This document shows, in pieces, positions 25,256 through 53,761 of a stretch of DNA of 64,000 nucleotides. The translations under genes and the position numbers were made by a program. Position 1 is the stretch's first letter. The number at the start of each line of letters is the position of its first letter. The stretch is from Candidatus Scatomonas pullistercoris. GTDB taxonomy: Bacteria > Bacillota > Clostridia > Lachnospirales > Lachnospiraceae. The notes under the pieces were generated by a model. That model saw only the letters and a program-made list of their open reading frames with translations. It was not told where the DNA came from and searched no databases. The stretch lies in the NCBI GenBank assembly GCA_018713515.1, contig DVOO01000003.1, forward strand, positions 1 through 64,000, read 5' to 3'.

Positions 25256-25258
25256 GTC

Positions 25259-26776
25259 TCATACCCCCTGCTCTAAAATCGCGTAAATCTGTTTCATGTC
25301 CATATGTTCCCGGAGAGCAGCCGCCAGAATATCGTACTGGCTCTCCTTGAAGGTCTGGTAATCCACGCCGGTCATCTCCGACGTATCAATGCCCTTCGCC
25401 TCTCCCAGGGCCTCCACAATTCTTTCCGCCACCTGCTCCTTATCGAAAATGCTGTGTACATAGGAGCCGTAGACATTTCCCTTCTGATTTCCGTCCAGCT
25501 TGGCAGCCGCGGAATCCTGATTGGTGTCCTGAATCTTTGTCAGAGGTTCTGCGCCTTCCGCGGCGGTGCTGACGCCCATATGAATCTCGTATCCTTCCAG
25601 GGCTGTGCCGGACAGTTTTTCAAGAATACCTCCTATCTGCCCGAAGGAGCCTTCTACACGGGTTCTGGTTTTGTTTCCGGCAAAGACGGTGTCCATGGGC
25701 AGAAGTCCCATACCCTTGATGCTGCCGCCGCTTTCCACACCCATGGGATCGCTTAAGCTGTTTCCCAGCATCTGGTAGCCGCCGCAGACACCGAAGATCA
25801 CCGTTCCGGCCGCCGCCGCCTTTAAAATCTCGGCTTCCAGGCCGTTCTGGCGCATCCACAGCAGATCCTCCATGGTATTCTTCGTTCCTGGCAGAATGAT
25901 CATATCCGGGTTCTTCAGCTCTGAGACGCGCTGCACATACCGGAGGGATACGCCGGGCATGCTCTCAAAGGGATTAAAATCCGTAAAGTTGGAGATCCGG
26001 GGCAGACGGATTACCGCGATATCGATCAGGCCCACTTCCTGGCGGTCCTCAAACCGCTCTGTCAGACTGTCCTCATCCTCCACCTCGATGTTCAGATAAG
26101 GGGCTATCCCCACCACGGGGATGCCGGCTTTTTCCTCCAGCATCTTTACCCCGGGATCCAGGATCGTCTTGTCTCCCCGGAATTTGTTGATGATCAGCCC
26201 CTTCACCATAGCGCGCTCGTCGGGATCCAGAAGATCCACCGTGCCGATAAGCTGTGCAAAGACGCCCCCGCGGTCGATGTCTCCCACCAGAAGCACCGGC
26301 GCCCGGGCGATCTTTGCCATACCCATGTTTACAAAAATATCATCGTCCTTCAGGTTGATCTCCGCGGGACTTCCCGCTCCCTCGATCACAATGATGTCGT
26401 TCTCCGCGGCCAGGGTCTCGTACGCCTGCCGCACGGCGGGGATCAGGTTCTTCTTGTAGGCGAAATACTCTCTGGCATCCATATTGCCCAGCACTTCCCC
26501 ATTTACGATCACCTGGGAGCCCGTATCGTTGGTGGGCTTGAGCAGGATCGGGTTCATCAGCACGGAAGGGGCGATCCCCGCAGCCTCCGCCTGCATGACC
26601 TGCGCTCTTCCCATCTCCAGCCCTTCCCGGGTGATGAAAGAATTCAGGGCCATGTTCTGGGCCTTAAAAGGCGCCACCCGGTATCCGTCCTGTTTAAAAA
26701 TCCGGCACAGGCCAGCCGCCAGCAGGCTCTTGCCCGCGTTGGACATGGTGCCCTGCACCATAATCGCTTTTGCCAT
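25259..26776 (-). CDS. cbiP: Cobyric acid synthase CbiP
   Basis: A 505-aa amidotransferase that adds four amides (b, d, e, g) to adenosylcobyrinate a,c-diamide. The N-terminal dethiobiotin-synthetase-like ATP domain starts [20 protein letters not shown] and has [12 protein letters not shown]. The C-terminal class I-like glutaminase domain has the nucleophile Cys in [11 protein letters not shown] (about 335) and a late His in [10 protein letters not shown]. Length is normal. It lies between cobD and cbiC. Confidence 0.96.
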
Positions 26777-26794
26777 CTGTCTCGTCCTCCCGTG

Positions 26795-27823
26795 TCATTT
26801 CAAAGCTTCCAGAAGCTTCAGATTTTCTTCATGCGTCTTCACTGCTGCCCGGTAATATCCCTCTTCCAGACCCCGGTAATTTCCGCAGTTCCGGATCAGC
26901 ACACCTCTTTCCAGTGCTTTTTTATCCAGCCCTTCCGGTCCGCGGAAAAACAGATAATTGGCCCTGGAGTCGTAGACCTTAAGGCCCAGGGCAGCCAGCT
27001 GTTCCCGCAGGAACTCCCGCTCTTTTTTCACCACTTCGCGGGCCCTGGCCACGTAGGCCTCCTCCTTCAGGGCTGCCGTGCCGGCAGCCTGAGCCGGTAT
27101 CGACACATTCCAGGGCTGCACGCAGTCCCGCATGACCTCCAGCAGCGCCTGGTCGGAACAGATCCCGTAGCCCAGACGGATCCCGGCCATGGCGTACCGC
27201 TTCGTGAAAGCCTTCAGCAGAAACAGATTTTTACAATCCCCAAGTCTTGCCTTGGCCGTATACCGGTCCGGCTCATCAATAAAATCCTGAAAGCATTCAT
27301 CAATGGCCAGAAAAGTCCCCGTCTCCCGGCAGCGTTCCAGGATCTCCGCCGTCAGTTCCGGCGGGATCAGCGTGCCTGTGGGATTATTGGGATTACAGAG
27401 CATGAGAAAATCCGTCTCCGGCGTGATCTCCTGCAGAATACGCCCGGTTACCCGGAAACCCTCCTCTTCCCGCAGCACGCAGTAGGAAATTTCCGTGCCG
27501 GCCAGGCGCAGGGCCTGCTCATATTCCGCGAAGGTGGGAGCCGGCAGCAGGGCGCGCCTGGGCCGCAGAGCCAGGGCCAGCATAAAGATCACCTCCGCCG
27601 CTCCGTTTCCGCAGATCAGCCACTCGGCCGGAACCTGCTCATACCGGGACAGGCTCTCCCGCAGAGCCTCCATACGGATATCCGGATAATTGTGTATTTC
27701 TTTCAGACTTTCCGCCGCCGCCCGGATCACGCGCTCCGGCGTTCCCAGCGGATTCATATTAGCTGAAAAATCCAGCGCATTCCGATGGCGGTAGACATCT
27801 CCGCCGTGTATTTTGTCTTTCAT
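26795..27823 (-). CDS. cobD: Threonine-phosphate decarboxylase CobD
   Basis: A 342-aa PLP enzyme of the histidinol-phosphate aminotransferase fold. In this context it decarboxylates L-threonine-O-3-phosphate to (R)-1-amino-2-propanol phosphate, the linker of the nucleotide loop. Seen features are the N-terminal HGGDVYR, then LDFSANMNPLGTPERV typical of CobD, CNPNNPTG, DECFQDF, and the PLP lysine in LLKAFTKRYAMAGIRLGY. A HisC role is possible from sequence alone, but the start motif and flanking cbiP and cbiB strongly favour CobD. Confidence 0.93.
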   Translation of the reverse strand: MKDKIHGGDVYRHRNALDFSANMNPLGTPERVIRAAAESLKEIHNYPDIRMEALRESLSRYEQVPAEWLICGNGAAEVIFMLALALRPRRALLPAPTFAEYEQALRLAGTEISYCVLREEEGFRVTGRILQEITPETDFLMLCNPNNPTGTLIPPELTAEILERCRETGTFLAIDECFQDFIDEPDRYTAKARLGDCKNLFLLKAFTKRYAMAGIRLGYGICSDQALLEVMRDCVQPWNVSIPAQAAGTAALKEEAYVARAREVVKKEREFLREQLAALGLKVYDSRANYLFFRGPEGLDKKALERGVLIRNCGNYRGLEEGYYRAAVKTHEENLKLLEALK

Positions 27824-27848
27824 TGTCTGTCTCCTTACTCCCCGTCCT

Positions 27849-28853
27849 TCACAGGCCGGACATCAGAACCGGCCAGACATACCCGTACAGCCCCAGACAC
27901 GCAAGCCGCAGCAGAGCCGCCAGGATCAGCGTCACCAGGGCCGCCGCATACATGAGCCGGTTGGCCCTCCGGATATCCTCCGCCTCCACAGGCCGGAGCG
28001 GATCTCCCAGCGTTGGCTTTTTATGCAGCTTTCCAAAGTACCAGGCGTCCCCGGCCAGCTGAATATCAAGGGCACCGGCCATAACCGCCTCCGTGTGGGC
28101 GGAATTGGGGCTGGCATGCTTCTTCCTGTCTCTCCGGTAAATTTTCAGGGCATTCTTCCTGTCCATGCCGCAGAGACCGGCCGCGAAAATCATCAGCCGG
28201 CCGGCCAGCCTTGCGGGAATAAAATTCACCACATCATCCAGTCTCGCGGCAAATGTACCGAAGTAACGGTATCTGTCATTTTTATAGCCCACCATGGAAT
28301 CCATGGTGTTAATGGATTTATAAAAGAATCCGCCGGCAGCGCCGCCGATCATCAGGAACAGCAGCGGGGCCACTACGCCGTCGGAGGCGTTCTCCGCCAC
28401 GGTCTCCACCGCCGCTTTCGTCACTCCCTCAAAGTCTAAATTCTGTGTGTCTCTTCCCACAATCATGGAAACGGCCCTGCGGGATTTTTCAAGATCTCCC
28501 GACTGCACCGCCGTCTGGACCCGCATGCTCTCCACCTTCAGAGCCTTCGTAGCCAGAAGCTGGTAGCACCAGAAGGTTTCCAGGGCAAACCCCGCCCACA
28601 CGTGCAGGCCGTACAGCAGGCGCAGCAGAAGCAGCGGCACCGCCGTACTGATCCCGGTGACACAGATCACCAGGAAGACGCCCGCTGTCCGTTCCCCCGC
28701 TTTTGTATTTGGAAAAACGGCCCGCAGAATTTTTTCAAAAAAGGTAATGAGCTTTCCAATAATCCGTACAGGGTGGTACAGCCATACCGGATCGCCAAAA
28801 AGCAGGTCCAGCAGAAACCCAAGAATCACTGCCGGAAGAATGTAATCTAACAT
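27849..28853 (-). CDS. cbiB: Adenosylcobinamide-phosphate synthase CbiB
   Basis: The protein has 334 aa from the ATG at 28853 (AAGGAAGG upstream; it overlaps the end of cbiA by 7 nt). It is an integral membrane protein with about five to six spans that attaches aminopropanol phosphate to cobyric acid. Typical segments are FLLDLLFGDPVWLYHPVRIIG near the N-terminus, SMIVGRDTQ, ENASDGVVAPL and FYKSINTMDSMVGYKN. It sits beside cobD, which makes its substrate. Confidence 0.95.
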   Translation of the reverse strand: MLDYILPAVILGFLLDLLFGDPVWLYHPVRIIGKLITFFEKILRAVFPNTKAGERTAGVFLVICVTGISTAVPLLLLRLLYGLHVWAGFALETFWCYQLLATKALKVESMRVQTAVQSGDLEKSRRAVSMIVGRDTQNLDFEGVTKAAVETVAENASDGVVAPLLFLMIGGAAGGFFYKSINTMDSMVGYKNDRYRYFGTFAARLDDVVNFIPARLAGRLMIFAAGLCGMDRKNALKIYRRDRKKHASPNSAHTEAVMAGALDIQLAGDAWYFGKLHKKPTLGDPLRPVEAEDIRRANRLMYAAALVTLILAALLRLACLGLYGYVWPVLMSGL

Positions 28854-30208
28854 GGGCCCTTCCTTTCCCTGCAGGCATCCAGAAAGGCCAGAGGCAGTTT
28901 TGTGTTGGCATAATAATAAAGATGCGGAAAACCGGCAAAAAGATTTTCCCGGCTGTGGATGCACCGCCAGCTTCTGTTTCCGGAGGGCTTTTCCGCCAGA
29001 AAATCCGATCCCGGGTCCTCTGTGTCAAAATAGTGGAACTCATGGGAGCGGATCTTCCCCACATCCCGGCCGAATACCCGGCCTCCTGTCAGCGTAATAT
29101 ATCCGAATCGGGTCAGCTTCCCGGTGTTCCAGGCTTTTCCCCTCATGACTCCCGCCATGGGGTACTCCTTCCCCTCCATATCCGTCATGGTTTCATGAAG
29201 GTACAGAAATCCCCCGCACTCGGCCATGCAGGGCAGCCCTCCCTCCAGGGACCTGCGGATGGATTCCCGCATGGAAGCATTTTCGCTGAGTTCTTTTACG
29301 TGCAGCTCCGGATAACCGCCGTGGAGCAGAAGCCCCGACAGCCCCTGCGGAAGCTCCGCATCGTGAAGGGGTGAAAATTCCACCAGCTCCGCCCCCTGTT
29401 CCCGCAGGAAGTTTAAATTGTCCTCATAGAAAAAGCAGAATGCCTCATCCCGGGCCAGGCCGATGCGCAGGCCGCATCCTGCCCCGCTCCCCTGTGCCCC
29501 GGACACCTCGGGCAGCTCCCCGGCCTCCGATGCGATCTTTAAAATCAGATCCAGGTCCAGAGTCTCCAGAAGGCGGCTGCTTAAGATTTCCATCTTCTCC
29601 TTCAGCGAATCCACCTCCTCCGGGAGCATCAGTCCCAGATGACGGCTTTCCAGCACACAGTCCTTCAGAACCGGAACGTATCCGGCCACCTTTACCGGAA
29701 GCTCCTCCTCGATGACCGCCTTCATCCTGGGATACAGCATGGGAGAGATGCGGTTGAGGATTACGCCCCGGATCAGGGGAACCTGCTGAAAATCCAGAAA
29801 GCCCTTGATCAGGGCCAGGAGCGAACGGCTGGACGCCGATGCGTCCACCACCAGAAGCACCGGTGTTTCCGTCACGGCGGCCAGATCGCTGGCTCCTGCC
29901 CGGGAAGACCTTTCGCTGAGTCCGTCATAATAGCCCATGACGCCCTCCATCACCGCTATTTCACAGTCTCTTCCGTTTTTGGCCAGCAGCATGCGGGTGG
30001 TCTCCCGGTCCGTAAAGAACGTGTCCAGATTCCGGCTCTTTGCGCCCAGCACGCGGCTGTGGAACATGGGATCAATAAAATCCGGCCCGCATTTAAAGGA
30101 AGCCGTCCGCATTCCCCTCTTTTTCAGAATACCGAGAAGGCCGCAGGTCACAAGAGTCTTTCCGCTGCCGCTCTTTGGCGCGGTAATCAGTATACGGTCA
30201 AGCTTCAT
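28847..30208 (-). CDS. cbiA: Cobyrinate a,c-diamide synthase CbiA
   Basis: The protein has 453 aa from the ATG at 30208 (GGAGG 8 nt upstream). The N-terminal P-loop ATP domain has APKSGSGKTLVTCG, FKCGPDFIDPMFH and EGVMGYYDGL. The C-terminal glutaminase domain has the Cys nucleophile in MAECGGFLYLHE and a late SHEFHYF. It amidates the a and c carboxylates of cobyrinate with glutamine. The ATG overlaps the end of the cbiJET gene by 11 nt. Confidence 0.95.
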   Translation of the reverse strand: MKLDRILITAPKSGSGKTLVTCGLLGILKKRGMRTASFKCGPDFIDPMFHSRVLGAKSRNLDTFFTDRETTRMLLAKNGRDCEIAVMEGVMGYYDGLSERSSRAGASDLAAVTETPVLLVVDASASSRSLLALIKGFLDFQQVPLIRGVILNRISPMLYPRMKAVIEEELPVKVAGYVPVLKDCVLESRHLGLMLPEEVDSLKEKMEILSSRLLETLDLDLILKIASEAGELPEVSGAQGSGAGCGLRIGLARDEAFCFFYEDNLNFLREQGAELVEFSPLHDAELPQGLSGLLLHGGYPELHVKELSENASMRESIRRSLEGGLPCMAECGGFLYLHETMTDMEGKEYPMAGVMRGKAWNTGKLTRFGYITLTGGRVFGRDVGKIRSHEFHYFDTEDPGSDFLAEKPSGNRSWRCIHSRENLFAGFPHLYYYANTKLPLAFLDACRERKGPC

Positions 30209-32201
30209 GCCGCCCACCTCCCGATGCCGAAATAATGTAGACGGGATTCTGTCCCATCATCATGTGATAACGGCCCAGTTCTTTGGACCTGGCCGCTGTC
30301 ACGGAAACAATATCTGTATCTTCCAGCTCCAGCTTCTTCAGAACCTCCAGGACTTCCGCCACCGTCTCCAGGGTGATGGCGTTGATTACCAGGCGGATGC
30401 GGGGGTTCTTTTTCAGGAGCAGTTCCACAATCTCCTGCAGGTTGCCCGAGGATCCGCCGATAAAGGCGTGGGTGGGTGGTGGCAGCTCTTCCAGAGCCTC
30501 CGGAGCCAGCCCCTCCACCACGGTAAGGTTGTCTGCCCGGAACTTCTGCCGGTTCCTTTTCAGAAGCTCCACGGCCGCCGGATTCTTCTCCACGGCCCAG
30601 ACATGGCCGCAGAGAGCCATGCGTGCCATCTCCACCGACACGGAGCCGCTTCCCGCGCCCACATCGTAGATCCGGGAGTCTTCCCGGAGGTGGAGCTTGC
30701 TTAAAGATACCTCCCGGACCTCTTCCTTCGTCATAGGCACCTTATCTCGCAGAAATTCCTCGTCCGGAATCCCGTGGGTAACCACCGTCTCCGGCTTCGG
30801 ATTTTCCACCAGCACGGTGCTTAAGGACTGCCCTTCATATTCCAGAAACTGCTCCGGCGGACCGCTCTCGATCCGCTCTTCCGGGTAGGTAAAGCACTCG
30901 CCCACGTGAACGGTTACCTCTGTCATGCCGTACCCGGTAAGTTTCCGGCACAGTTCCCGCACATCCTCCGCTTTTCCCAGCAGAGCGAAAACCTTCCGGT
31001 TCCGGCCGATGAGACCGATGAGATTGCTCTCCCGCCCGTGACGGCTGGTAATTTTCACATCCTCCCAGGACATCCCCAGCTTGCTGCAGAAGTACACCAG
31101 GGAAGAGATTCCCGGTATCAGCCTCACATCCCCCGGCAGAACCTCCAGCAGCTTTTTGGCGCCGCTGTAAAAGCCCACATCTCCCGACAGCAGAACAGCC
31201 GTCCGGCGGTATTCCGGATGCTCCCGGAGATACGCCGCGATCTCTCCCGGACGGTACTCCTTCAGCACTGTCCGGCCCTCATGGGGCACGCTCTCCAGCA
31301 TGCGCCCGGCCCCGATCAGAAGATCCGCGGAAGCGCAGAAGGCCCTGGCCTCCTCCGTCATGGTGCGGCCGTCTCCGCCGCCCATGCCGATGCCCACCAG
31401 GGCGGTTTCCCGCGGCTTTCTTACCGCCTCCGCCGGCGGCCTGCCTTCCCCGAAGGTCTCTCCCAGATACCGAAGACATTCCTCCAGACTGATACCCTCT
31501 TCCTGCAGCGGGCGGCCGATAATCACCAGCCGGCAGCCGGCAGCCTCCGCCGCGGATACCTTCTCGGGAAATCCCCCCGCCGCTCCCGTATCTTTCGTCA
31601 CCAGATACCGGGCCTGCGTCTGCCGCAGCATTGCTTCATTGATCTCCCGGGAAAAAGGCCCCTGCATGCAGATCAGGTGTTTTCCCTGAAAGCCCAGCCC
31701 GCTGCAGCTTTTCACCACCTCGGGAAGGGGAAGTACGCGGGCAAAAATTCTCTCCTGATAATCCGGCACACGGCAGAAGGCGGGGAGCTCCTTGCTTCCG
31801 GTGGTCAGAAAAATATTTCCCTCTGTCCCGGAAAGGAACTCCGCGGCTTCCTCGGGGCTTTCCACGTAGACAGCCTCCTCATGGCCGGTCAGGGTACTGT
31901 CCCGCAGTACCCGAAGATACCGCCTCCCCGTTTTTTCACAGGCCGCGCGGATATTTTCCGTCACAGCGGCGGCATAGGGGTGGGTGGCATCAATCACCAG
32001 GGCATCCTCCCCGGCAAAGAATTTCTCCATCTCCCCCTCATCCATTCTCTTCCCGGAAACGGTCAGGCTTCCGCCTTCCCGCAGAAGGCTCTGGCCGTAT
32101 TCCGTGGCTGCGGAGGCGAAGGCCGGAACCCCCAGCTCTTTCAGATATTCCGCTATTTTTCTTCCTTCTGCCGTTCCGGCAAAAAGCAGTACCTTATACA
32201 T
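30198..32201 (-). CDS. cbiJET: CbiJ-CbiE-CbiT triple fusion
   Basis: A 667-aa three-domain protein. Residues 1 to about 255 are the precorrin-6A reductase CbiJ (LFAGTAEGRKIAEYL, VIDATHPYAAAVTENI). Residues about 268-465 are the C5 methyltransferase CbiE (VGIGMGGGDGRTM, LLSGDVGFYSGAKKL, SLVYFCSKLGMSW). Residues about 475-667 are the C15 methyltransferase/decarboxylase CbiT (GIPDEEFLRDKVPMTKEEVR, DVGAGSGSVSVEMA, FIGGSSGNLQEIVELL). CbiET fusions (CobL) are common; covalent addition of CbiJ is less so. The protein would channel the corrin ring through reduction, two methylations and decarboxylation. It overlaps cbiH by 8 nt. Confidence 0.93.
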   Translation of the reverse strand: MYKVLLFAGTAEGRKIAEYLKELGVPAFASAATEYGQSLLREGGSLTVSGKRMDEGEMEKFFAGEDALVIDATHPYAAAVTENIRAACEKTGRRYLRVLRDSTLTGHEEAVYVESPEEAAEFLSGTEGNIFLTTGSKELPAFCRVPDYQERIFARVLPLPEVVKSCSGLGFQGKHLICMQGPFSREINEAMLRQTQARYLVTKDTGAAGGFPEKVSAAEAAGCRLVIIGRPLQEEGISLEECLRYLGETFGEGRPPAEAVRKPRETALVGIGMGGGDGRTMTEEARAFCASADLLIGAGRMLESVPHEGRTVLKEYRPGEIAAYLREHPEYRRTAVLLSGDVGFYSGAKKLLEVLPGDVRLIPGISSLVYFCSKLGMSWEDVKITSRHGRESNLIGLIGRNRKVFALLGKAEDVRELCRKLTGYGMTEVTVHVGECFTYPEERIESGPPEQFLEYEGQSLSTVLVENPKPETVVTHGIPDEEFLRDKVPMTKEEVREVSLSKLHLREDSRIYDVGAGSGSVSVEMARMALCGHVWAVEKNPAAVELLKRNRQKFRADNLTVVEGLAPEALEELPPPTHAFIGGSSGNLQEIVELLLKKNPRIRLVINAITLETVAEVLEVLKKLELEDTDIVSVTAARSKELGRYHMMMGQNPVYIISASGGGRHEA

Positions 32202-32925
32202 CTCTGTATCCTCTGGGGGTCACCATTTTCCCGTTGATCTCCCGGGTCTGGGAATTGCCCACAAACACCGTGGTGAACATATCCACCTGCGTATCCCGAA
32301 GCTCCTGCAGGCTCATAACCCGGCACGCTTCCCCTTCTCTTCCGATATTGGCCACAATGCCGCAGACGGTATCCCCGGACTTATAGCGCATCATCAGGTC
32401 GCAGGCCCTGGCCAGATAGTCATGGCGCTTTTTGCTGGAGGGATTGTACAGGCAGACCACAAAATCCGCCTCCGCCGCAGCCAGCAGCCGCTTCTCGATC
32501 TTTTCCCAGGGGGTCAGAAGATCGCTTAAGCTGATCAGGCAGAAATCATGGATCAGGGGCGCTCCCAGCACGGCAGCTCCTCCGGTGGCGGCCGTCACGC
32601 CCGGAAGGATCGTAAGCTCCACCTCCGGGTACTTTTCCCCCACCTCGTACATAAGCCCTGCCATGCCGTAGACCCCGGCGTCTCCGCTGCAGATCATGGA
32701 CACCACATGGCCCTTCTTCGCCTCCTCAAAGGCAAGAACACAGCGGTCCACCTCCTTTGTCATGGGAGTGGTCAGAAACCGCTTGTCCGCAAAATGTTCC
32801 TTCACCAGATCCACATATACCGTATATCCGATAATGGTATCACTGTCCTTCAGGGCCTCCGCAGCCTCAACCGTCATCTTTTCATAGGCCCCCGGCCCAA
32901 TTCCTACTACGTATATTTTGCTCAA
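32194..32925 (-). CDS. cbiH: Cobalt-factor III / precorrin-3B C17-methyltransferase CbiH
   Basis: A 243-aa SAM-dependent tetrapyrrole methylase that contracts the ring during C17 methylation. Seen motifs are the N-terminal VVGIGPGAYEKMTVEA, the ICSGDAGVYGMAGLMYE loop and LGAPLIHDFCLISLSD-type segment with the family's acidic and Ser residues. Length is typical of stand-alone CbiH without extra iron-sulfur domains. It overlaps cbiG by 4 nt and cbiJET by 8 nt. Confidence 0.94.
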   Translation of the reverse strand: MSKIYVVGIGPGAYEKMTVEAAEALKDSDTIIGYTVYVDLVKEHFADKRFLTTPMTKEVDRCVLAFEEAKKGHVVSMICSGDAGVYGMAGLMYEVGEKYPEVELTILPGVTAATGGAAVLGAPLIHDFCLISLSDLLTPWEKIEKRLLAAAEADFVVCLYNPSSKKRHDYLARACDLMMRYKSGDTVCGIVANIGREGEACRVMSLQELRDTQVDMFTTVFVGNSQTREINGKMVTPRGYRDV

Positions 32926-34013
32926 AATTCTACACTCCTGTTTTCCAGGGCAACCGCGCAGGTCACGCCGCCGCCGCTTACTTTTTTTATGATCAGAGCT
33001 CCCTTGCCGCAGAGAACGGCGCTGCGCTCACACACATTGTCTACGCCGGTTACATCCGACACGAAGCCGGAAGAGGTAAACGTTCCGGGTACCGCCCGGA
33101 GCTCCTCCGCTGAATAGGTGCGCAGCGGAAGCTCCCGGTTCCTGCAGAATTCCAGCAGCCCCGGCTCATCCTTTTTCAGATCAATGGTCGCCACCTGCAG
33201 CAGCGCCTCCGGATAGAGACTGTAGCTGCGCAGCGTATCCTCCACCAGCTTCTCAATCTGCCGCGCGCTCACCCCTCTCCGGCATCCGATCCCCAGCGTC
33301 AGGCATCTGGGTATCAGCCAGAGGGTATGCTTAAAATACGCTCTCTGATAGGAGGGGCTGATGTAAATTCCAAGGGAAGTCTCCTCCGCCGTCCGCTCCT
33401 GATCCTGATCCCGGTAAAACTCCGAGCTCCAGACCAGCCCCTCCGGCAGCTCTCCCTTTACCGGAAAATGGGTATAGAATCCCACCTGGTCTCCGGCCAG
33501 CAGCGCCGCCGACACTTCCTTGGCGTAGGTCATATTGGAAATAATCATATTATTTTTCTTTGCGTACACATCCACGGCAAACTTCTGGTTTACGTCCGTG
33601 GCTGTGGTCAGCACGGCCCGGCAGCCGAGCTCCCGCTCCATCCACAGAGCCGCCTCGTTGGCCCCGCCGATGTGGCCGGAAAGCAGGGGAATGCAGAACT
33701 GCCCCCTCTCATCCAGCACCAGCACCGCCGGATCCATCCGCTTATCCTTTACGTAGGGAGCAATGGCCCGGACCGCGATCCCGGCCGCTCCCACAAAGAT
33801 CAGCACATCCCTGTCAAGAAAGCGTTTTGCCGCCCAGCTCTGAAGTCCCTCCGTCACCGGAAGAAAGGCGGGATGCGCCGCAAGATCCAGTTTTTTCCCC
33901 TTGCAGTACCAGGATACCTCCGCCTTCTCCCCGGGAAGTGTCCCAAAAAGCTCTATGATTCTTTCAGAGAGCTCCATGCCCGCATTTGTAAAACATATCC
34001 CCGCAACTTTCAT
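32922..34013 (-). CDS. cbiG: Cobalt-precorrin-5A hydrolase CbiG
   Basis: A 363-aa protein that opens the delta-lactone of cobalt-precorrin-5A, releasing acetaldehyde. The N-terminal and central parts carry FVGAAGIAVRAIAPYV and LLSGHIGGANEAAL, characteristic of CbiG. The C-terminal domain starts about LGIGCRRGVS and has the conserved EELRAVPGTFTSSGFVSDVTG. No fused methylase is present. It lies 20 nt after cbiF and overlaps cbiH by 4 nt. Confidence 0.94.
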   Translation of the reverse strand: MKVAGICFTNAGMELSERIIELFGTLPGEKAEVSWYCKGKKLDLAAHPAFLPVTEGLQSWAAKRFLDRDVLIFVGAAGIAVRAIAPYVKDKRMDPAVLVLDERGQFCIPLLSGHIGGANEAALWMERELGCRAVLTTATDVNQKFAVDVYAKKNNMIISNMTYAKEVSAALLAGDQVGFYTHFPVKGELPEGLVWSSEFYRDQDQERTAEETSLGIYISPSYQRAYFKHTLWLIPRCLTLGIGCRRGVSARQIEKLVEDTLRSYSLYPEALLQVATIDLKKDEPGLLEFCRNRELPLRTYSAEELRAVPGTFTSSGFVSDVTGVDNVCERSAVLCGKGALIIKKVSGGGVTCAVALENRSVEF

Positions 34014-34033
34014 TTCAGCTGCCCCCTTACCTG

Positions 34034-34798
34034 CTACGCTTGCTTTGTTCCCTGACGGAACTCCGTGGTGAATTCCGGATGATACAGCTTGGAGCGGTCA
34101 TAATGGCTGTGGGTCACCGCGTCCCCGATGATCATCAGGGCTGTTTTCGTGATATTCTCCCTCCTGGCTGTCTCCGCCAGGGTGCCCACGGTGCAGACGC
34201 AGGCCTTCTCGTCCTCCCAGGTGGCCTTGTAAACGATGGCGGCCGGCGTATCCTCCCGGTATCCGCCCTCGATCAGCCGGCGGCTGAGCTCCTCCAGCAT
34301 TCCTGTGCTTAAGAACACCACCATGGTAGCCTGGTGGGCGGCGAAGGACTCAATGCTTTCCTTCTCCGGCACCGGCGTCCGGCCGGCCATCCGGGTGATG
34401 ATCACGCTCTGGGAAACCTCCGGGAGCGTGTACTCCAGATTCAGCGCCGCGGCTGCTCCGCAGAAGGAGCTGACACCGGGACAGTAATCATAAGCAATCC
34501 CCTTTTCATCCAGCACATCCATCTGCTCCCGGATAGCTCCGTAGAGACAGGGATCTCCCGTATGCAGCCGCACAGTGGTCAGGCCCTGGTTCTCGGCATC
34601 CTCCATCACCTTCAGCACTTCCTCCAGGGTCATCTTTGCCGAGTTATAGACACGGCATCCTTCTTTTTTATAGTCCAGAAGCTGCGGATTCACCAGCGAA
34701 CCGGCATAGATGATCACATCCGCCTCCTCCAAAAATTTCTTTCCCCGCAGGGTAATCAGATCCGGGGCTCCGGCTCCTGCTCCAACAAAATGTATCAT
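34034..34798 (-). CDS. cbiF: Cobalt-precorrin-4 C11-methyltransferase CbiF
   Basis: A 254-aa SAM-dependent methylase. The N-terminus has FVGAGAGAPDLITLRG, then ADVIIYAGSLVN, RLHTGDPCLYGAIREQMD and SSFCGAAAALNLEYTLPE, the standard CbiF/CobM pattern. It methylates C11 in the anaerobic route. It overlaps cbiL by 4 nt. Confidence 0.95.
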   Translation of the reverse strand: MIHFVGAGAGAPDLITLRGKKFLEEADVIIYAGSLVNPQLLDYKKEGCRVYNSAKMTLEEVLKVMEDAENQGLTTVRLHTGDPCLYGAIREQMDVLDEKGIAYDYCPGVSSFCGAAAALNLEYTLPEVSQSVIITRMAGRTPVPEKESIESFAAHQATMVVFLSTGMLEELSRRLIEGGYREDTPAAIVYKATWEDEKACVCTVGTLAETARRENITKTALMIIGDAVTHSHYDRSKLYHPEFTTEFRQGTKQA

Positions 34799-35481
34799 GG
34801 CTTCTCCTTTACAATAATCAAAGAATAATATCCGGCATCCTCCGGGATCTCCTCCACGGAGCGGTAAATCTTCTCATCCGGCATCCCGCAGTTCTCGATC
34901 ATGGCCACCGGCAGCTCCTGCGCCTTAAGTATCCGCTTCACATCCGCCATCTTCTTTCCGGCCTTCATCAGCACCTTGGTGCCGGGCAGCTTCAGGGCCT
35001 CTTCAATCTGATAGGAGGCCGGAATCACATGGAGAGGCTCCGCCTTCTCCACCAGCCCCATGTTCAGGCGGGCCGCCACCGCGCAGAAGGATGTAATTCC
35101 GCTTACAATCTCCGTCTCATAGCCTGCGGCTTCCACACGCTTATGTACGTAGAGATACGTGGAATAAACCGTTGGATCCCCCAGGGTCAGAAATGCCACC
35201 TGCTCTCCCCGGTCCAGATACTCCATAACCTTTGCGGCCCCCTCATCGTGGGAGGCCGCAAGCCTCGCCGGATCCTTTGTCATGGGCATATCCACCGCCA
35301 GCAGTTCTTTTTCCTCTATTTCCGGGCATGCTCCCTGAACAATCTTATAGGCCACCGTATCCTTCGGCTCCCGTCCGGGCAGCGCCAGCACCTGGCTCTC
35401 CCGGATAACCCGCAGGGCCTTCAGCGTCAGCAGCTCCGGGTCTCCGGGGCCGATGCCCACTCCGTATAGTTTTCCCTTCAT
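34795..35481 (-). CDS. cbiL: Cobalt-precorrin-2 C20-methyltransferase CbiL
   Basis: The protein has 228 aa from the ATG at 35481, which overlaps the cbiD stop (ATGA); the open frame runs further upstream inside cbiD but has no sensible start. Family motifs are YGVGIGPGDPELLTLKAL, FLTLGDPTVYSTYLYV, and VSGITSFCAVAARLNM. It adds the C20 methyl group, an early step of the corrin pathway. Confidence 0.94.
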   Translation of the reverse strand: MKGKLYGVGIGPGDPELLTLKALRVIRESQVLALPGREPKDTVAYKIVQGACPEIEEKELLAVDMPMTKDPARLAASHDEGAAKVMEYLDRGEQVAFLTLGDPTVYSTYLYVHKRVEAAGYETEIVSGITSFCAVAARLNMGLVEKAEPLHVIPASYQIEEALKLPGTKVLMKAGKKMADVKRILKAQELPVAMIENCGMPDEKIYRSVEEIPEDAGYYSLIIVKEKP

Positions 35482-36674
35482 AAATGTATCCTCTCTTTTT
35501 GTCCGTTTATCTTCCGGATCAGATCCGGTACCGTCTCTGTCTCTCCCAGTTTTCCCCTCACAGAGGAAAAAAGCACAGCCCCCGTCTCCAGGCTTCCCCT
35601 GGTATGCTGATCCAGATAGAACTGCACTTTTGTACAGATTTCTTCCATGGTCCTGCCATACAGCTCCCCGTCTCCCTCCGCCAGGAGATCCAGCGCCTCC
35701 TCGGTGGTTCCCGTATCCAGGATTCCACGGGCCAGGGATGCGTCCGCCCCGGCCCGGAGAGCCGCAGCTGCCATGAGCTCCGCCCTGGCATCCGCGTTCC
35801 GGGAATGGGTATTCATAATTCCCCCGGACACCTTGATAAATTTTCCGATATGGGCGATAAACAGGATTCCCTTTACTCCCAGCTCTTCCGCCAGATCCAG
35901 GGTCTCCCCCACATAGTTGCTGCATTTCATCTCGCAGGTGAGATCGATTCCCTTCTGCTCTCCCGCGAAGGCCTCCCCGTAATTTCCCGGGGTGATCACA
36001 AGATATTCCGCCCCGGCTGCGGTCAGCATCCGCATCTCCGCCTCAATACTCCGGATCAGCGCCTCCTCGCTCATGGGCATGACAATGCCGCTGGTTCCCA
36101 GCACGGACAGGCCGCCCTGGATTCCAAGCCTGGGATTGAAGGTTTTCCGCGCGATCTCCTCTCCTCCCGGAATGGAGATCACCACGGACAGGCCGCCTGT
36201 GTAGCCCTGCTCCCGGCAGACCTGCTCCGTCTCCTTCCGGATCATTTCCCTGGGCGTACTGTTGATGGCCGCACTGCCCGCCGGCTGATTCAGGCCGGGC
36301 CTGGTTACCCGGCCCACGCCCTCTCCTCCGTCGATAAAGATTCCCTGCTCCTGCCTCCTGGATACTTCCGCATATACCAGAAGCCCGTGGGTGGCATCGG
36401 GGTCATCCCCTCCATCTTTCCGCACCGCGCAGCGCACCCGTTCCGGATACGGGCCGGTGCCCGGCTTCATCTCAATTTCCTCGATCAGCAGATGAAGCAG
36501 GATCCCCTTCGGCGTCTCCAGGGCAATCTCTTCCACCGGCGCCCCCCTCAGCAGCATCACTGCCGCCGCTTTCGCCGCGGCAGCCGCGCAGGAGCCCGTT
36601 GTATAGCCGCACCGAAGCTTTTTATGGCCCTTCAGGACGAAAGAATCCTCCAGGCCGGTTTTATGTTCTGTCAT
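35478..36674 (-). CDS. cbiD: Cobalt-precorrin-5B C1-methyltransferase CbiD
   Basis: A 398-aa enzyme specific to the anaerobic route. The N-terminus has LRCGYTTGSCAAAAAKAA, typical of CbiD, followed by VRKDGGDDPDATHG, GVGRVTRPGL, AINSTPREMI, LGTSGIVMPMSEEA and FIAHIGKFIKVSGGIMNTHS. It marks the pathway as oxygen-independent. It lies 26 nt after the amidohydrolase gene and is coupled to cbiL. Confidence 0.95.
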   Translation of the reverse strand: MTEHKTGLEDSFVLKGHKKLRCGYTTGSCAAAAAKAAAVMLLRGAPVEEIALETPKGILLHLLIEEIEMKPGTGPYPERVRCAVRKDGGDDPDATHGLLVYAEVSRRQEQGIFIDGGEGVGRVTRPGLNQPAGSAAINSTPREMIRKETEQVCREQGYTGGLSVVISIPGGEEIARKTFNPRLGIQGGLSVLGTSGIVMPMSEEALIRSIEAEMRMLTAAGAEYLVITPGNYGEAFAGEQKGIDLTCEMKCSNYVGETLDLAEELGVKGILFIAHIGKFIKVSGGIMNTHSRNADARAELMAAAALRAGADASLARGILDTGTTEEALDLLAEGDGELYGRTMEEICTKVQFYLDQHTRGSLETGAVLFSSVRGKLGETETVPDLIRKINGQKERIHL

Positions 36675-36700: not shown

Positions 36701-37582
36701 TTATTCTCTGGCAAAGCCTTCCAGTCTCCGCTGGCCCTCCTCAAGATCCGGGACGAGCCTCTCATCCTCCGGAAAAATTTCCCGGAAAGCCTGGTATTCC
36801 TGCAAAATTCCGGAACCGTGTCCCACCATGCAGGCTCCCGCGTCGCTTCCCAGAGCCATGGGCACCCCCAGAGCTCTGGCCGCCCGCATCTGTGTTCCGA
36901 TCCGCTTCCAGATCCTTTCCAGTATCCGGTCAGAATATCTTCCGCAGCCTATGAGATTTTTTACAGTCACCACCGTGGGCACCCAGAGAGTTCCGCACTC
37001 GGCCAGCACACGCAGGCTTTGCTCGTCCTGGAAATTTCCGTGTTCCAGAGAATCCACGCCGGCCGCCGCCGCGATCTCGCAGCTTCGGGCCCCGTTGGTA
37101 TGGCTCATGACCCGAAATCCTTCCTCATGGGCAATCCGGACCATTTCAAAAACCTCGTCCTCCGAAAGAGCACGGCTGGTCAGAGTATGATCTGTGCGGA
37201 AGTCCATGATCCCCGTGGTCATGATCTTAATAAAGTCAGCCCCCTGCCGTTTTCTCTCCCGGACCAGAGAGGCGTACTCCCTCAGATTTTCAAATGGTTC
37301 CCCGGCTACCCGGCCGTAATGCCCTTTTTTATAAAGGGCCGCCCCGGGCGTCCGGTAGGTGATCCCATACTCCGGCGCCAGTTCTCTCGCAAGAAAAGAA
37401 GCGCCGAAGTGATCGCCCCCGTCCCGGACAAACGAGATCCCTCTTTGCTGATACTCGGCCAGGTGGGCACGGATCCGCCTTTCATCCGGACCGTTTCTGT
37501 GGGCCTCCACGGAAGCATGGTAATCCGCTCCGTCCATAAAAATATGGGCGTGTCCCTCACCGAACATTACCGGCTCAGTCAT
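36701..37582 (-). CDS. Amidohydrolase-superfamily enzyme within the cobalamin operon
   Basis: The protein has 293 aa from the ATG at 37582, whose codons overlap the end of the cobC-like gene by 8 nt. It is a TIM-barrel metal hydrolase: HxH in GEGHAHIFMD near residue 10, a likely carbamylated Lys in ADFIKIMTTGIMD, His in VMSHTNGARS, His in SLEHGNFQDE, and the catalytic Asp in LGSDAGACM. All expected metal ligands are seen. The HAHIFMDG start and short length resemble imidazolonepropionase/prolidase-like amidohydrolases. The gene is not one of the standard cobalamin steps, yet it is embedded and overlapping in the operon. Corrinoid or lower-ligand salvage is a guess from context only. Confidence 0.85.
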   Translation of the reverse strand: MTEPVMFGEGHAHIFMDGADYHASVEAHRNGPDERRIRAHLAEYQQRGISFVRDGGDHFGASFLARELAPEYGITYRTPGAALYKKGHYGRVAGEPFENLREYASLVRERKRQGADFIKIMTTGIMDFRTDHTLTSRALSEDEVFEMVRIAHEEGFRVMSHTNGARSCEIAAAAGVDSLEHGNFQDEQSLRVLAECGTLWVPTVVTVKNLIGCGRYSDRILERIWKRIGTQMRAARALGVPMALGSDAGACMVGHGSGILQEYQAFREIFPEDERLVPDLEEGQRRLEGFARE

Positions 37583-38186
37583 GGCCGCCGCCCCGGACGA
37601 TCTTCCCGTCCACAACCAGCTGGCGTCCGCCGGCCAGAAAGCTGTCCGGGAACAGGCGTACCCGGTAGCCCTCGGCGTTATCCACATGCCACTGATAGTA
37701 ATCCTGATGCGGGAAACCGTAGGTTTCCAGAATACTCATGATGGTTCCCCCATGAACAATCAGCGCCACTTCCTCCCACTGATTTTCACAGGCCTCCCGC
37801 ACCACGCGTTCCAGTCCGGCAATGCAGCGGGCCCGGAATTCCCCGCGGCTCTCGCCCCCCGGAAATTCCATGGTTCCGCCGCTGTCCACCCATTTCTGGT
37901 AATTCGGATTGCCGCTCAGTTCCTGATAGTTTTTATTTTCAAACTCGCCAAAATCACATTCGGCAAATTCATCCACCACTGTGATCTCCTGCCCCGGAAA
38001 CAGAATCTCCGCCGTCTCCAGACATCTCTTTCTGGGGCTTGCGTAAACCCGGTCCACCGAGCCCAGACTGTATTTCTGCAGGTCTGCGGCTTCCTCGGGA
38101 AGCAGAGGCTCATCCGTGGTCCCGATATACCGGCCCAGGGTGTTTCCGTAGGTTTTCCCGTGCCGGATCATGTACATTTTCAGCAT
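37575..38186 (-). CDS. cobC: Histidine phosphatase, CobC-type alpha-ribazole phosphatase
   Basis: A 203-aa phosphoglycerate-mutase-fold enzyme. The phospho-His motif MIRHGKTYGN lies at residues 6-15, the second Arg in VYASPRKRCLETAEI, an acidic FAECDFGEFENKNY segment, and the second His in LIVHGGTIMS. In this cluster it most likely removes the 5'-phosphate from alpha-ribazole phosphate or adenosylcobalamin phosphate. A general phosphatase is possible, but the position between cobS/cobU and cbi genes supports CobC. Confidence 0.85.
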   Translation of the reverse strand: MLKMYMIRHGKTYGNTLGRYIGTTDEPLLPEEAADLQKYSLGSVDRVYASPRKRCLETAEILFPGQEITVVDEFAECDFGEFENKNYQELSGNPNYQKWVDSGGTMEFPGGESRGEFRARCIAGLERVVREACENQWEEVALIVHGGTIMSILETYGFPHQDYYQWHVDNAEGYRVRLFPDSFLAGGRQLVVDGKIVRGGGHD

Positions 38187-38214: not shown

Positions 38215-38601
38215 TCATGCGTCTTTCCCCTTGATTACCTGGCCGATCCCGCAGACCACCCGGTGCACTTCCTCCGAAAAAGCTGCCAGTTTTTCACAGG
38301 TCCGGCCCACAGCCTCCCTGTATTTCCGGTCAAACGGATCCACCGGCACCACGCCGTACCCCAGCTCATTGGAAAGGATCACAACATCCGGATTTTTTTC
38401 TTCCAGCTCTTCGGCCAGGCCGTCCACGCTCCTGCCGGCTTTCAGTTCTCTCTTTATAAAATCATGAAAATGAACGATCCCCCGGGCCCGGAACAGCTCG
38501 TCTCTGGAACAGGTATTCCCGTCCAGCCACTCCTCCAGACCGAAAGTTTTTTTCGCGTAATTCAGTTTACCCTGAAACGAACCGCCTATTACAAGCTTCA
38601 T
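38215..38601 (-). CDS. Short CobU-like P-loop protein
   Basis: A 128-aa CobU-like protein, shorter than the usual 170-190 aa. It keeps a P-loop (GGSFQGK at residues 6-12) and the C-terminal motif NELGYGVVPVDPFDRKYREAVG, which resembles canonical CobU. It lacks the middle segment that carries the guanylylated His (R-I-x-x-H-R-x-x-R). The full-length CobU at 39374 has that His but an altered NEIFSDGTEYGN region. The short protein could be a cobinamide kinase, a partner of CobU, or a decayed paralogue. Its start overlaps the cobS stop by 4 nt, so it is translated in step. Confidence 0.8.
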   Translation of the reverse strand: MKLVIGGSFQGKLNYAKKTFGLEEWLDGNTCSRDELFRARGIVHFHDFIKRELKAGRSVDGLAEELEEKNPDVVILSNELGYGVVPVDPFDRKYREAVGRTCEKLAAFSEEVHRVVCGIGQVIKGKDA

Positions 38602-39377
38602 CCTGTTATCATCCCCGCAATCTTATTTCCTATTACAACCGTCAGTATCATGGCCAGCTCACTGACACATACATAAAATCCCGCCAGATCTCCCGTAATT
38701 CCTCCGAAATACTTCATGGCCATGTGATGGTAAAAAGCAAAACAGAGCGCTGCGGCCGCCATCAGCAGCACGCCCAGCAGGGGATCCAGCAGCACCCCGC
38801 CCCCTGTCAGAAGAATCAGGTATACAGCCAGGGCGGCGTTAACCTTCCGCTTCAGAGAATTCTTTCCGAAGGCCGCCGCCGTCCCCTTTGGATTGGCATT
38901 GGGAAAGTTCTCCACGGACAGGGCGGAAAAGGTTCTCGACACAGAGAAGGCCAGGCAGATGACCGGAAGACATGCTTCCGTCACCTCCCCCGCCGCTCCC
39001 AGATACAGGACGAAATAGCTGATGCCGGAGATCACGGCAAAGGCCCCCGCATGGGAATCCTTCAGAATCTCCAGCCGCTTTTCCCTCTCTCTCCAGGAAC
39101 TCATGGCGTCAGAAGTATCCAGAAAGCCATCCAGATGAATCCCTCCCGTCACCAGTACCGGGATCAGCACAAAACCGGCGCCGGAGAGAAGTATATGAAA
39201 GTCCAGCAGCCTCGCCAGATAAAACCAGCCGTATTCCAGAGCCCCCACAGCCAGGCCCACCCAGGGGAAAAAGCACATGGAGTACTTCATATTCTCCCTG
39301 GTCCAGTCCGCCCTGGGCATGGGAATCTTGGAATACATGGAAAAGGCCACCACAAAGCTGTTCCAGAGGCTCTTCAT
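38598..39377 (-). CDS. cobS: Adenosylcobinamide-GDP ribazoletransferase CobS
   Basis: A 259-aa polytopic membrane enzyme that joins alpha-ribazole(-5'-P) to GDP-activated cobinamide. Typical motifs are the N-terminal FSMYSKIPMPRADW, FFPWVGLAVGALE, the metal-binding GGIHLDGFLDTSDAMSS, and LKDSHAGAFAVISG. It overlaps cobU upstream and the short CobU-like gene downstream, each by 4 nt. Confidence 0.96.
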   Translation of the reverse strand: MKSLWNSFVVAFSMYSKIPMPRADWTRENMKYSMCFFPWVGLAVGALEYGWFYLARLLDFHILLSGAGFVLIPVLVTGGIHLDGFLDTSDAMSSWREREKRLEILKDSHAGAFAVISGISYFVLYLGAAGEVTEACLPVICLAFSVSRTFSALSVENFPNANPKGTAAAFGKNSLKRKVNAALAVYLILLTGGGVLLDPLLGVLLMAAAALCFAFYHHMAMKYFGGITGDLAGFYVCVSELAMILTVVIGNKIAGMITG

Positions 39378-39901
39378 GCCCTTTTTCCCCCTTTCAGCGA
39401 AATGGGAATTCCATATACAACTTCCGTGACCCTGTCCGCCCAGAGCGCCACTTCCTGATTGATGGTGCCCAGATATTCCTGGTAAAGGCGGGTGGAATTT
39501 CCGTACTCCGTCCCGTCCGAAAAAATTTCATTGGTAACGATCACCAGATTTTCCGCCTGCTCCCTCAGATGCCAGATTCCCTTCAGAACGGCTTCCACCG
39601 TGTGGATGCCCGCTCCCTCCGGCCGGAACATTTCATTGGCAACCAGATTTGACATACACTCCAGCAGGATATTGGCCCCTTCCGGAAACTCCCTGCTGGA
39701 CAGGGATTCATAGCATTCCACCGTCTCAAAATTCTTTTCCGCGCGCATGGCCCGGTGCCTGTCGATCCTCCGGAGGCTTTCCTCGTCATAGGGATACATG
39801 GTGGCGACATAGATTCTGCGCCCCGGCCCAAGCTTCAGGATCTGTTCCTCCGCGTAACGGGATTTTCCGCTGCCGGATCCGCCTGTAATCAAATGCAGCA
39901 T
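39374..39901 (-). CDS. cobU: Cobinamide kinase / cobinamide-phosphate guanylyltransferase CobU
   Basis: A 175-aa bifunctional enzyme. P-loop GGSGSGKSRYAEE lies at residues 7-19. VATMYPYDEESLRRIDRHR holds the His that carries GMP. Further marks are LLECMSNLVANEMF and TNEIFSDGTEYGNSTRLYQE, a variant of the usual NE-x-G motif. It phosphorylates adenosylcobinamide and converts the product to the GDP-activated form used by CobS. It lies 10 nt after cobT. Confidence 0.94.
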   Translation of the reverse strand: MLHLITGGSGSGKSRYAEEQILKLGPGRRIYVATMYPYDEESLRRIDRHRAMRAEKNFETVECYESLSSREFPEGANILLECMSNLVANEMFRPEGAGIHTVEAVLKGIWHLREQAENLVIVTNEIFSDGTEYGNSTRLYQEYLGTINQEVALWADRVTEVVYGIPISLKGGKRA

Positions 39902-39911
39902 ACTGTCTCTC

Positions 39912-40961
39912 CTAACTTAACGGGACGTAAGTCTCGATCTCATTTTCCTCGAAGGTTGCCATCTTATTGTACACCTCCAGCCCCATATCCAGGAGCGGGA
40001 ACAGCATGATGGCTCCGCTCCCCTCTCCCAGACACATATCGCAGGTAAGGAAAGCCTCTTTGCCGATGGCCGCCAGAAGCATCTCCGCCGCCGGCTCCCT
40101 GGAAACATGGGATGCCATCATATAGTCCGCCGCCTGGGGACAGATGCGCATGGCTGTCAGCGCCGCCACACAGGAGATAAATCCGTCAATGACAACGGGC
40201 ATATGCATGGCCGCGCCTCCCAGGAATACACCGGCCATTCCGGCGATATCGAATCCGCCCACCTTGGCCAGCACATCCACCGGATCCTCCGGATCCGGCC
40301 GGTTCAGGGCAACGGCCTTTTTTATCGCCTGAATTTTCCGGTTCAGTCCCTCGCTGGACAGTCCGGCTCCTCTTCCGGTCAGCTCCTCCGCAGGTCTTCC
40401 CAGAAATACAGAAGCCATGGCGCTGCTGGTGGTGGTATTGCCGATTCCCATCTCGCCGGTGGCGAGGATCCGGTATCCCTCCTCCTTCTTTTCCATGGCC
40501 AGGCGGATTCCCGTCTCCAGCCCCTGCAGCGCCTGCTCCCGGCTCATGGCCGGTCCCTTTGTCATATTCTGCGTGCCGTAGGCGATCTTGCAGTTCCGTA
40601 TGGTGGTATCCCGGTAAATTCCCATATCCACCGGGAATATATCCGCCCCTGTTGTTCTGCAGAGGATCCCGGCCGTAGCCTTCTCCTGCAGAAAATTCTC
40701 CGCCACCTGGGCCGTCACTTCCTGGCCTGTCTGAGTTACTCCTTCCTCCACAACGCCGTTGTCGGCGCAGAGCACCAGCAAAGCCTTTTTCGCAATATCC
40801 ACCTGGGAAGTTCCCTGGATCCCCGCCATCTGTACTACCGCTTTTTCCAGCTTGCCGAGGCTCCGGAGAGGTTTTGCGATGGAATCCCAGTGCCGCCATG
40901 CCGCATCCATGGCTGACTGGTCCAGAGGAACAATTTCCGCGATTGTTTTCTCCAGTAACAT
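39912..40961 (-). CDS. cobT: Nicotinate-nucleotide:dimethylbenzimidazole phosphoribosyltransferase CobT
   Basis: The protein has 349 aa from the ATG at 40961, with AAGGA 8 nt upstream; an upstream-open frame to 41072 crosses the promoter and is not used. Family motifs are PLRSLGKLEKAVVQMAGIQ, LCADNGVVEEGVTQTGQEVT, GEMGIGNTTTSSAM, GGFDIAGMAGVFLGGA and CLGEGSGAIMLFPLLD, which holds the catalytic Glu region. It activates the lower-ligand base. It is the first gene of the long cobalamin run. Confidence 0.96.
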   Translation of the reverse strand: MLLEKTIAEIVPLDQSAMDAAWRHWDSIAKPLRSLGKLEKAVVQMAGIQGTSQVDIAKKALLVLCADNGVVEEGVTQTGQEVTAQVAENFLQEKATAGILCRTTGADIFPVDMGIYRDTTIRNCKIAYGTQNMTKGPAMSREQALQGLETGIRLAMEKKEEGYRILATGEMGIGNTTTSSAMASVFLGRPAEELTGRGAGLSSEGLNRKIQAIKKAVALNRPDPEDPVDVLAKVGGFDIAGMAGVFLGGAAMHMPVVIDGFISCVAALTAMRICPQAADYMMASHVSREPAAEMLLAAIGKEAFLTCDMCLGEGSGAIMLFPLLDMGLEVYNKMATFEENEIETYVPLS

Positions 40962-41027
40962 ATCTTTCGTCCTTTCCGTCCGCACATTTGTCTGCGCCGC
41001 ATTGCCGCGCCGCAGTACACCTCTGCT

Positions 41028-53475: not shown

Positions 53476-53511
53476 AAAACAAAAACCGTCTCAGGCATAT
53501 GCCTGAGACGG
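53476..53511 (-). terminator. Regulatory terminator of the T-box
   Basis: A GC-rich stem of at least 11 bp (CCGTCTCAGGC at 53486-53496 with its complement at 53501-53511) has an ATAT loop. TTTTTGTTTTG follows on the minus strand. It is the default off state of the T-box leader. Confidence 0.9.
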
Positions 53512-53761
53512 TAATAAACTAATATTATCGCGGTACCACTCAACTTGACCATCGGTCCACTCTCTTCACGTACCCTCATACGTGCCGGCTTGATAACGGG
53601 TCCGGTTCCCGGCAGCGCCTACTCTGAACCATTTCGGACTGCCCTCGAAAGTCCATTCCACAGACCGTTCCATACGGCAATTCCACCATCTGCCGCTCTC
53701 TGAGATTTCCCGTCCTGCGTACTACTCTTTCTCATCGGTTTCTCATGTCTGAAATCCATTA
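53476..53761 (-). promoter_or_regulatory. T-box riboswitch (likely tRNA-Trp) of the trpXYZ operon
   Basis: On the minus strand the leader holds, in order, an AGAGTAGTA-type start element, AGAGAG with a GGTGGAA distal loop, a likely specifier loop containing TGG (53658-53660), GAGTAGG and CCCGTTATC of stem III, and the T-box core TGGTACCGCG (53529-53541). The core competes with the terminator at 53486-53511. It ends about 90 nt before the transporter start. Uncharged tRNA binding would stabilise the antiterminator. The T-box is clear; the Trp assignment of the specifier is an inference supported by the TrpX-like genes. Confidence 0.9.

Follow-up and report, generated by a model that had tools for sequence, protein, structure and literature searches.

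The question raised by this locus is why a gene for a metal-dependent amidohydrolase should lie within an operon of anaerobic cobalamin genes. The gene is located in the first 64,000 nucleotides of contig DVOO01000003.1 of Candidatus Scatomonas pullistercoris, the whole of which we refer to as the window, and it encodes a short amidohydrolase that we call AHS (Table 1). Its ORF begins with an ATG at 37582 and ends with a stop codon at 36701. The end of cobC overlaps the first AHS codons by 8 nt (37575-37582), and a gap of 26 nt containing the Shine-Dalgarno-like stretch GGGGAC separates the AHS stop codon from the start of cbiD at 36674; a sequence-only reading had placed the amidohydrolase in the cobalamin operon with this overlap and this gap, and the coordinates confirm it. 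The gene order is thrC-cobT-cobU-cobS-cobU-like-cobC-AHS-cbiD-L-F-G-H-JET-A-B-cobD-cbiP-cbiC, in which cobT, cobU, cobS, cobC, cbiD and cbiJET were named by family profiles and the others by sequence reading. Homologues of the portion from cbiL to cbiC occur in identical order at two other loci (L020 and L021). A cobalamin riboswitch was sought ahead of cobT and not found, the Rfam matches being at chance level only.

Table 1. Coordinates in the window of AHS, its operon neighbours and the codons of its conserved residues
Feature	Position	Strand	Details
AHS, short amidohydrolase, barrel only	36701..37582	-	293 aa
cobC-like phosphatase	37575..38186	-	PF00300; TIGR03162 104.6 bits, below cut-off 162.9
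cbiD, downstream of AHS	35478..36674	-	TIGR00312 407.6 bits
cobU-like short ORF, cobS, cobU, cobT, upstream of AHS, same operon	38215..40985	-	family profiles
cbiL, F, G, H, JET, A, B, cobD, cbiP, cbiC (operon remainder)	24617..35469	-	sequence reading; cbiJET by family
H11 codon, predicted metal ligand, first His of HxH	37550..37552	-	invariant in 45 and in 109 sequences
H13 codon, predicted metal ligand, second His of HxH	37544..37546	-	invariant, alignment
D57 codon, family-specific invariant, RDGGD motif	37412..37414	-	99/99 members; mostly non-Asp in 10 generic relatives
Y89 codon, family-specific invariant, G-x-Y-G	37316..37318	-	99/99 members; His in 7/10 generic COG1228-type relatives
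K119 codon, position of carboxylated lysine bridging metals	37226..37228	-	invariant, alignment
H161 codon, predicted metal ligand	37100..37102	-	invariant, alignment
N163 codon, family-specific near-invariant, two residues past H161	37094..37096	-	98/99 members
H181 codon, predicted metal ligand	37040..37042	-	invariant, alignment
N209 codon, family-specific near-invariant	36956..36958	-	95/99 members
D247 codon, predicted metal ligand and proton shuttle	36842..36844	-	invariant, alignment

The AHS reading frame stays open further 5', to 328 aa, and 37582 is its probable start, judging from relatives that start at about the same place, 5-10 residues ahead of the HxH motif. Comparison with the orthologue of Scatomonas merdigallinarum (80% protein identity) gave a dN of 0.12 and a dS of 1.08 by NG86, a dN/dS of ~0.1, with 47, 32 and 116 substitutions at codon positions 1, 2 and 3, respectively. 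This level of identity, the low dN/dS and the predominance of third-position substitutions indicate that AHS is a real gene.

Other features of the operon and of the window were also recorded. The ORF at 38215-38601 (minus strand) encodes a 128-aa CobU-like protein beside the full-length CobU; it retains the P-loop (GGSFQGK) and the C-terminal part, and the middle of CobU is missing. This short protein is found again at 23 related loci, in their cobalamin operons and with about 50-76% identity, so it is conserved and not a decaying fragment. A thrC-like threonine synthase gene, named by sequence reading (41178-42671, minus strand), lies directly upstream of cobT and occupies the same place in many relatives. 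The window also contains a T-box leader at the gathering threshold (53501-53744, minus strand) and an ORF for a macrodomain hydrolase-like protein (19805-20629, minus strand; sequence reading). A similar ORF is found near AHS at locus L141 of genome G076, where an FmdE-family gene (8690-9220) is another neighbour of AHS.

The earlier statement that all metal ligands are present holds well: H11, H13, K119, H161, H181 and D247 are invariant in an alignment of 45 sequences and also in 109 sequences. This is the ligand set of the binuclear-type amidohydrolase superfamily, from which metal binding and carboxylation of the lysine are predicted for AHS. The protein matches Pfam PF01979 at 31.8 bits (cut-off 25), and its sole NCBIfam match is to the equivalog NF051886 (Xaa-Pro dipeptidase), in which membership is ruled out by a score of 64 bits against a cut-off of 500. 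The AlphaFold2 model of AHS is a (beta/alpha)8 barrel (pLDDT 95.6, pTM 0.92) that resembles amidohydrolases of the COG1228 group with Z scores of 26-29.5. These relatives have a beta-sandwich before and after the barrel, whereas the AHS model ends with the barrel, and most AHS members have their HxH motif 6-14 residues into the chain, versus 54-75 in generic relatives; by both the HxH position and the model, AHS lacks the N- and C-terminal beta-sandwich that characterizes the COG1228 prolidase/carboxypeptidase group.

On a protein tree, a split with 98/94 support divides the short AHS family from the generic relatives of COG1228 type. The Acetobacterium-type and Lachnospiraceae-type members share only about 31-36% identity, yet they group together on the tree and have in common D57, Y89, N163 and N209, which are mostly absent from the generic relatives. 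From the sharing of these residues at so low an identity, we infer that the two types may act on one common substrate. H88, the neighbour of Y89, is not conserved in AHS. Activity of the bile salt hydrolase metalloBSH, a related enzyme, depends on a conserved His (His196) close to the amide bond, and the acid group of its substrate has a predicted contact with an Asn that follows a metal His at a distance of two residues (PMC13081902); if these positions correspond, AHS would have a Tyr in place of the His and an Asn at the second place. As an identity for AHS, metalloBSH was rejected, since it is a secreted enzyme from Desulfovibrionaceae (PMC13081902) and belongs to another family.

Among the known relatives, the prolidase eah89906 (3feq/3n2c), the L-Lys/L-Arg carboxypeptidase Cc2672 (3mtw) and the Xaa-Pro dipeptidase 2qs8 have the barrel and the six ligands of AHS, and the model aligns with them at Z 27.9-29.1 over 276-285 residues. 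They differ from it in sequence (about 20-24% identity) and in their beta-sandwich parts, residues 1-290 of the model corresponding to 53-360 of the longer chain; the Tyr that aligns with a His of most generic relatives, and the Asn two residues past the metal His, further set AHS apart from enzymes of the COG1228 group. The ochratoxin A amidohydrolases (ADH3, 8ihq/8ihs; LlADH, 9l6p; Aspergillus niger ochratoxinase, 4c5y) have a similar fold (Z 26.8-28.2) and match AHS in barrel-core sequence (phmmer 2.7e-18), but they are full-length proteins of about 400 residues, and LlADH has HAHG where AHS has HTNG at the metal His. We know of no link between these enzymes and one-carbon operons. The imidazolonepropionase HutI (2q09, 2gok), which hydrolyses a cyclic amide, also has the amidohydrolase barrel, but its similarity is lower (Z about 22) and the setting of AHS is not one of histidine degradation. 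The adenosylcobinamide amidohydrolase CbiZ (PF01955) shares with AHS only the name "amidohydrolase" and a corrinoid context; the proposal that the two are distinct is borne out by a Pfam search, in which the AHS protein gave no match to PF01955, and by the separate CbiZ in the window's own genome (G000:C21:13747). A CbiZ-like role in remodelling was likewise set aside, as CbiZ is found in 19/347 Lachnospiraceae genomes and its overlap with AHS is partial.

The distribution of AHS is informative as to its role. A sample of 347 Lachnospiraceae genomes was evenly drawn, most of them from different genera, and acetyl-CoA synthase was detected through its CdhC domain. AHS was found in 43 of these genomes and strong matches to acetyl-CoA synthase also in 43, with both present in 40 (Fisher 3e-45, a value that takes related genomes as independent and so overstates their independence, as do the other Fisher values given below); absences in incomplete genomes are uncertain. 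The cobalamin gene cbiD occurs in 40/43 AHS carriers versus 160/304 non-carriers (Fisher 9e-8, related genomes again being taken as independent), and given acetyl-CoA synthase its presence contributes nothing further to the prediction of AHS. All three of the carriers in which cbiD was not detectable have acetyl-CoA synthase.

There are also three AHS carriers with no match to acetyl-CoA synthase. One of them (G216) has acsD-acsC-acsE-acsV-fchA-folD on the AHS contig, beginning at the contig edge, which would have removed acsB (AcsC, AcsD and AcsE were named by sequence reading); in another (G322, a genome 87% complete) CODH follows directly after AHS. These two thus carry other genes of the Wood-Ljungdahl pathway (WLP), and the third (G243) stands as a mismatch. 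In the survey as a whole, acetyl-CoA synthase without a detected AHS was seen in four genomes (G211, G279, G330 and G522). The window's own genome has acetyl-CoA synthase at G000:C17:44541 (E 5.4e-68), in a CODH/ACS operon on contig C17. A second genome of the same genus (G001, 1.4 Mb) is missing AHS, cbiD and acetyl-CoA synthase, which suggests their joint loss. Two side observations concern these one-carbon loci. In G216, one-carbon and cobalamin genes lie on one island, where acsD-acsC-acsE-acsV-DUF3786-fchA-folD (L223, contig C26, 232-7825) is about 15 kb from cbiD and the cobalamin operon ends with AHS. In the CODH/ACS operon on contig C17 of the window's own genome (L222, 7572-8213), the gene next after RACo (acsV) encodes a DUF3786 protein, as it does in G216.

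The sequence-only reading had asked how often the orthologue stands beside cobC and cbiD elsewhere. Such placement does recur in relatives, but as a general rule it fails, since only 8/43 Lachnospiraceae orthologues are inside a cobalamin operon and 35/43 are outside any. In a scan of one genome per species, 14 of 54 AHS-related loci adjoin cobalamin genes, among them loci from Scatomonas, Bilifractor, Fusicatenibacter, Eubacterium and Ruminococcus. Within cobalamin operons AHS takes two positions, after cobC (with cbiD next or further on) or after cbiC, and the three changes of the cobalamin-operon label on the AHS protein tree imply repeated moves of the gene into or out of such operons. AHS is away from the WLP genes in most Lachnospiraceae, Blautia among them. 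Its neighbours in most Blautia, as judged by sequence reading, are glycerol kinase upstream and nfo, dgt, dnaG and rpoD downstream, among which no hint of function was found.

In Eubacteriaceae the connection to one-carbon genes is a physical one. A profile search of 40 genomes found AHS in 26 and acetyl-CoA synthase in 27, with both in 26 (Fisher 1e-9, related genomes taken as independent), and in 26/26 carriers, some of them judged from 1.5 kb beside AHS alone, the methyl-branch operon ends with a copy of the gene. There it stands directly after metF in fhs-fchA-folD-(rnfC2)-metV-metF, or after an lpdA-gcvH pair that follows metF. The carriers include Acetobacterium wieringae (L070, L071), and one genus with 4.3-Mb genomes (n=4) has a second AHS copy, of the Lachnospiraceae type, elsewhere in the genome. 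Geosporobacter ferrireducens (L069) has the order AHS-DUF166-cooS-cooC-fhs-fchA; the DUF166 protein between AHS and CODH in this Wood-Ljungdahl cluster is encoded at 8921-9745 of the locus.

The Eggerthellaceae present another situation. Among 122 genomes, 9 have AHS and 21 have cbiD, the latter being present in 8/9 AHS carriers versus 13/113 others. The one genome with a true acetyl-CoA synthase has AHS, and 8/9 carriers are without the synthase. RACo, the reductive activator of corrinoid proteins, is found in 9/9 carriers versus 10/23 of the other genomes tested, and at one locus (L065) AHS adjoins two genes of the URO-D family, a family that includes the corrinoid methyltransferases of O-demethylation. 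Carriers that have cbiD and RACo without acetyl-CoA synthase imply a link to corrinoid- and folate-dependent methyl metabolism more broadly, of which the WLP is the main form.

Based on the tracking of acetyl-CoA synthase and the membership in methyl-branch operons, the role of AHS probably lies in one-carbon metabolism rather than in the synthesis of B12 itself. It is highly probable that the family is linked to the Wood-Ljungdahl pathway, and probable, with less assurance, that AHS is an accessory hydrolase of folate/corrinoid one-carbon metabolism, above all of that pathway. Its presence in the cobalamin operon would then reflect the corrinoid that the operon makes for the pathway, rather than cobalamin synthesis itself. 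As to substrate, the embedding of AHS with formyl-tetrahydrofolate synthetase, cyclohydrolase, methylene-tetrahydrofolate dehydrogenase and reductase leads us to favour, tentatively, a side product of tetrahydrofolate, for example 5-formyl-tetrahydrofolate or the p-aminobenzoyl-glutamate part; that the bond cleaved is an amide, formyl or cyclic amidine in such an off-pathway derivative is a rather unlikely guess when taken by itself. By analogy with the superfamily, H11, H13, carboxylated K119, H161, H181 and D247 would hold two metals, and the hydroxide that bridges these would attack a carbonyl or amidine carbon while D247 shuttles the proton. Hydrolysis by AHS might thus keep a large folate pool in working form without ATP cost. 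The composite picture, which we put forward with similar reserve, is that of an unremarked, conserved accessory of the WLP methyl branch: a compact amidohydrolase that hydrolyses tetrahydrofolate species lying off the pathway, or some related C1 adduct, and whose gene is in the methyl-branch operon in Acetobacterium and related bacteria and, in gut acetogens, became part of the cobalamin operon, probably on more than one occasion.

The main rival on substrate is a corrinoid-directed hydrolase that acts, by removal or repair, on an amide of a cobamide intermediate or of a damaged corrinoid, for which the very large corrinoid methyl-transfer flux of acetogens would create the need. It is favoured by the recurrence of AHS in cobalamin operons, in either of two positions and with three changes of the operon label across the tree, by the co-occurrence of cbiD in 40/43 Lachnospiraceae and 8/9 Eggerthellaceae carriers, and by the RACo found in all of the Eggerthellaceae carriers tested; some corrinoid link is possible, every host lineage examined having corrinoid methyl-transfer genes as well. 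However, cbiD is uninformative once acetyl-CoA synthase is given and is missing from three carriers, 160 Lachnospiraceae genomes have cbiD without AHS, and in Eubacteriaceae the gene lies among folate genes, not cobalamin genes. We therefore consider this alternative unlikely, and the distribution leads us to reject a corrinoid step as the primary role of AHS; the original suggestion of a corrinoid amide or a lower-ligand precursor as substrate is accordingly not sustained by a gene that lies mostly outside cobalamin operons and tracks acetyl-CoA synthase instead.

An ordinary dipeptidase or carboxypeptidase of the prolidase group, present in these operons by accident, would agree with the nearest solved structures (prolidases, arginine/lysine carboxypeptidases and ochratoxin hydrolases, Z 26-29.5) and with the only NCBIfam match, but it is made improbable by the shortfall in that match, the missing beta-sandwich and the invariant Tyr where 7/10 generic relatives have His; nor would a hitch-hiker track acetyl-CoA synthase at 40/43 and 26/26. 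We give a similarly small weight to a catabolic feeder that frees C1 substrates, such as methylated, methoxylated or formylated amides, for entry into the pathway: the setting of the Eggerthellaceae copies, with URO-D family genes and RACo, recalls O-demethylation islands, but AHS stands last in the core methyl-branch operon and accompanies acetyl-CoA synthase in almost every genome, which suggests a constant need and no niche substrate. A partnership with LpdA-GcvH, for instance in the release of lipoyl from GcvH, might be read from those Eubacteriaceae operons that run lpdA-gcvH-AHS, in one of which (L213) gcvH and AHS touch; this is very improbable, in that many Acetobacterium operons have AHS directly after metF with no lpdA-gcvH between, and no such link was seen in Lachnospiraceae.

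We found no description of the short AHS family in the open-access papers searched, which is no proof of absence. The only mention encountered is in a Figure 9 legend on WLP gene clusters, which lists "Toce_0798, amidohydrolase" from Thermosediminibacter oceani, a possible member in that it is an amidohydrolase gene given with WLP cluster genes; it is not discussed in the portion of the article available to us (PMC3584212). A comparison of 14 acetogens gave an acetogen-specific core of 13 genes, comprising WLP genes and fwdE as the one non-pathway gene, with no amidohydrolase (PMC5039349); AHS is therefore not universal in acetogens, or else is too divergent in Clostridium, Moorella and others. 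A discussion of MetVF-type reductases remarks that metVF has lpdA and gcvH as neighbours, and no word in it starts with "hydrolase" (PMC8760232); the methyl-branch cluster of A. woodii is Awo_c09260-c09310 (PMC8407422).

The case is a warning against assigning function from a single operon, since the B12 operon alone pointed the wrong way for AHS. The Wood-Ljungdahl pathway is among the most studied routes of CO2 fixation and its gene set is taken as settled. The presence of AHS in 26/27 and 40/43 acetyl-CoA synthase genomes of two families, together with its place within the methyl-branch operon of the Eubacteriaceae, points to a chemical need that is off the pathway map; AHS could be used to recognize acetogenesis in genomes, and its role would be testable in genetically tractable acetogens.
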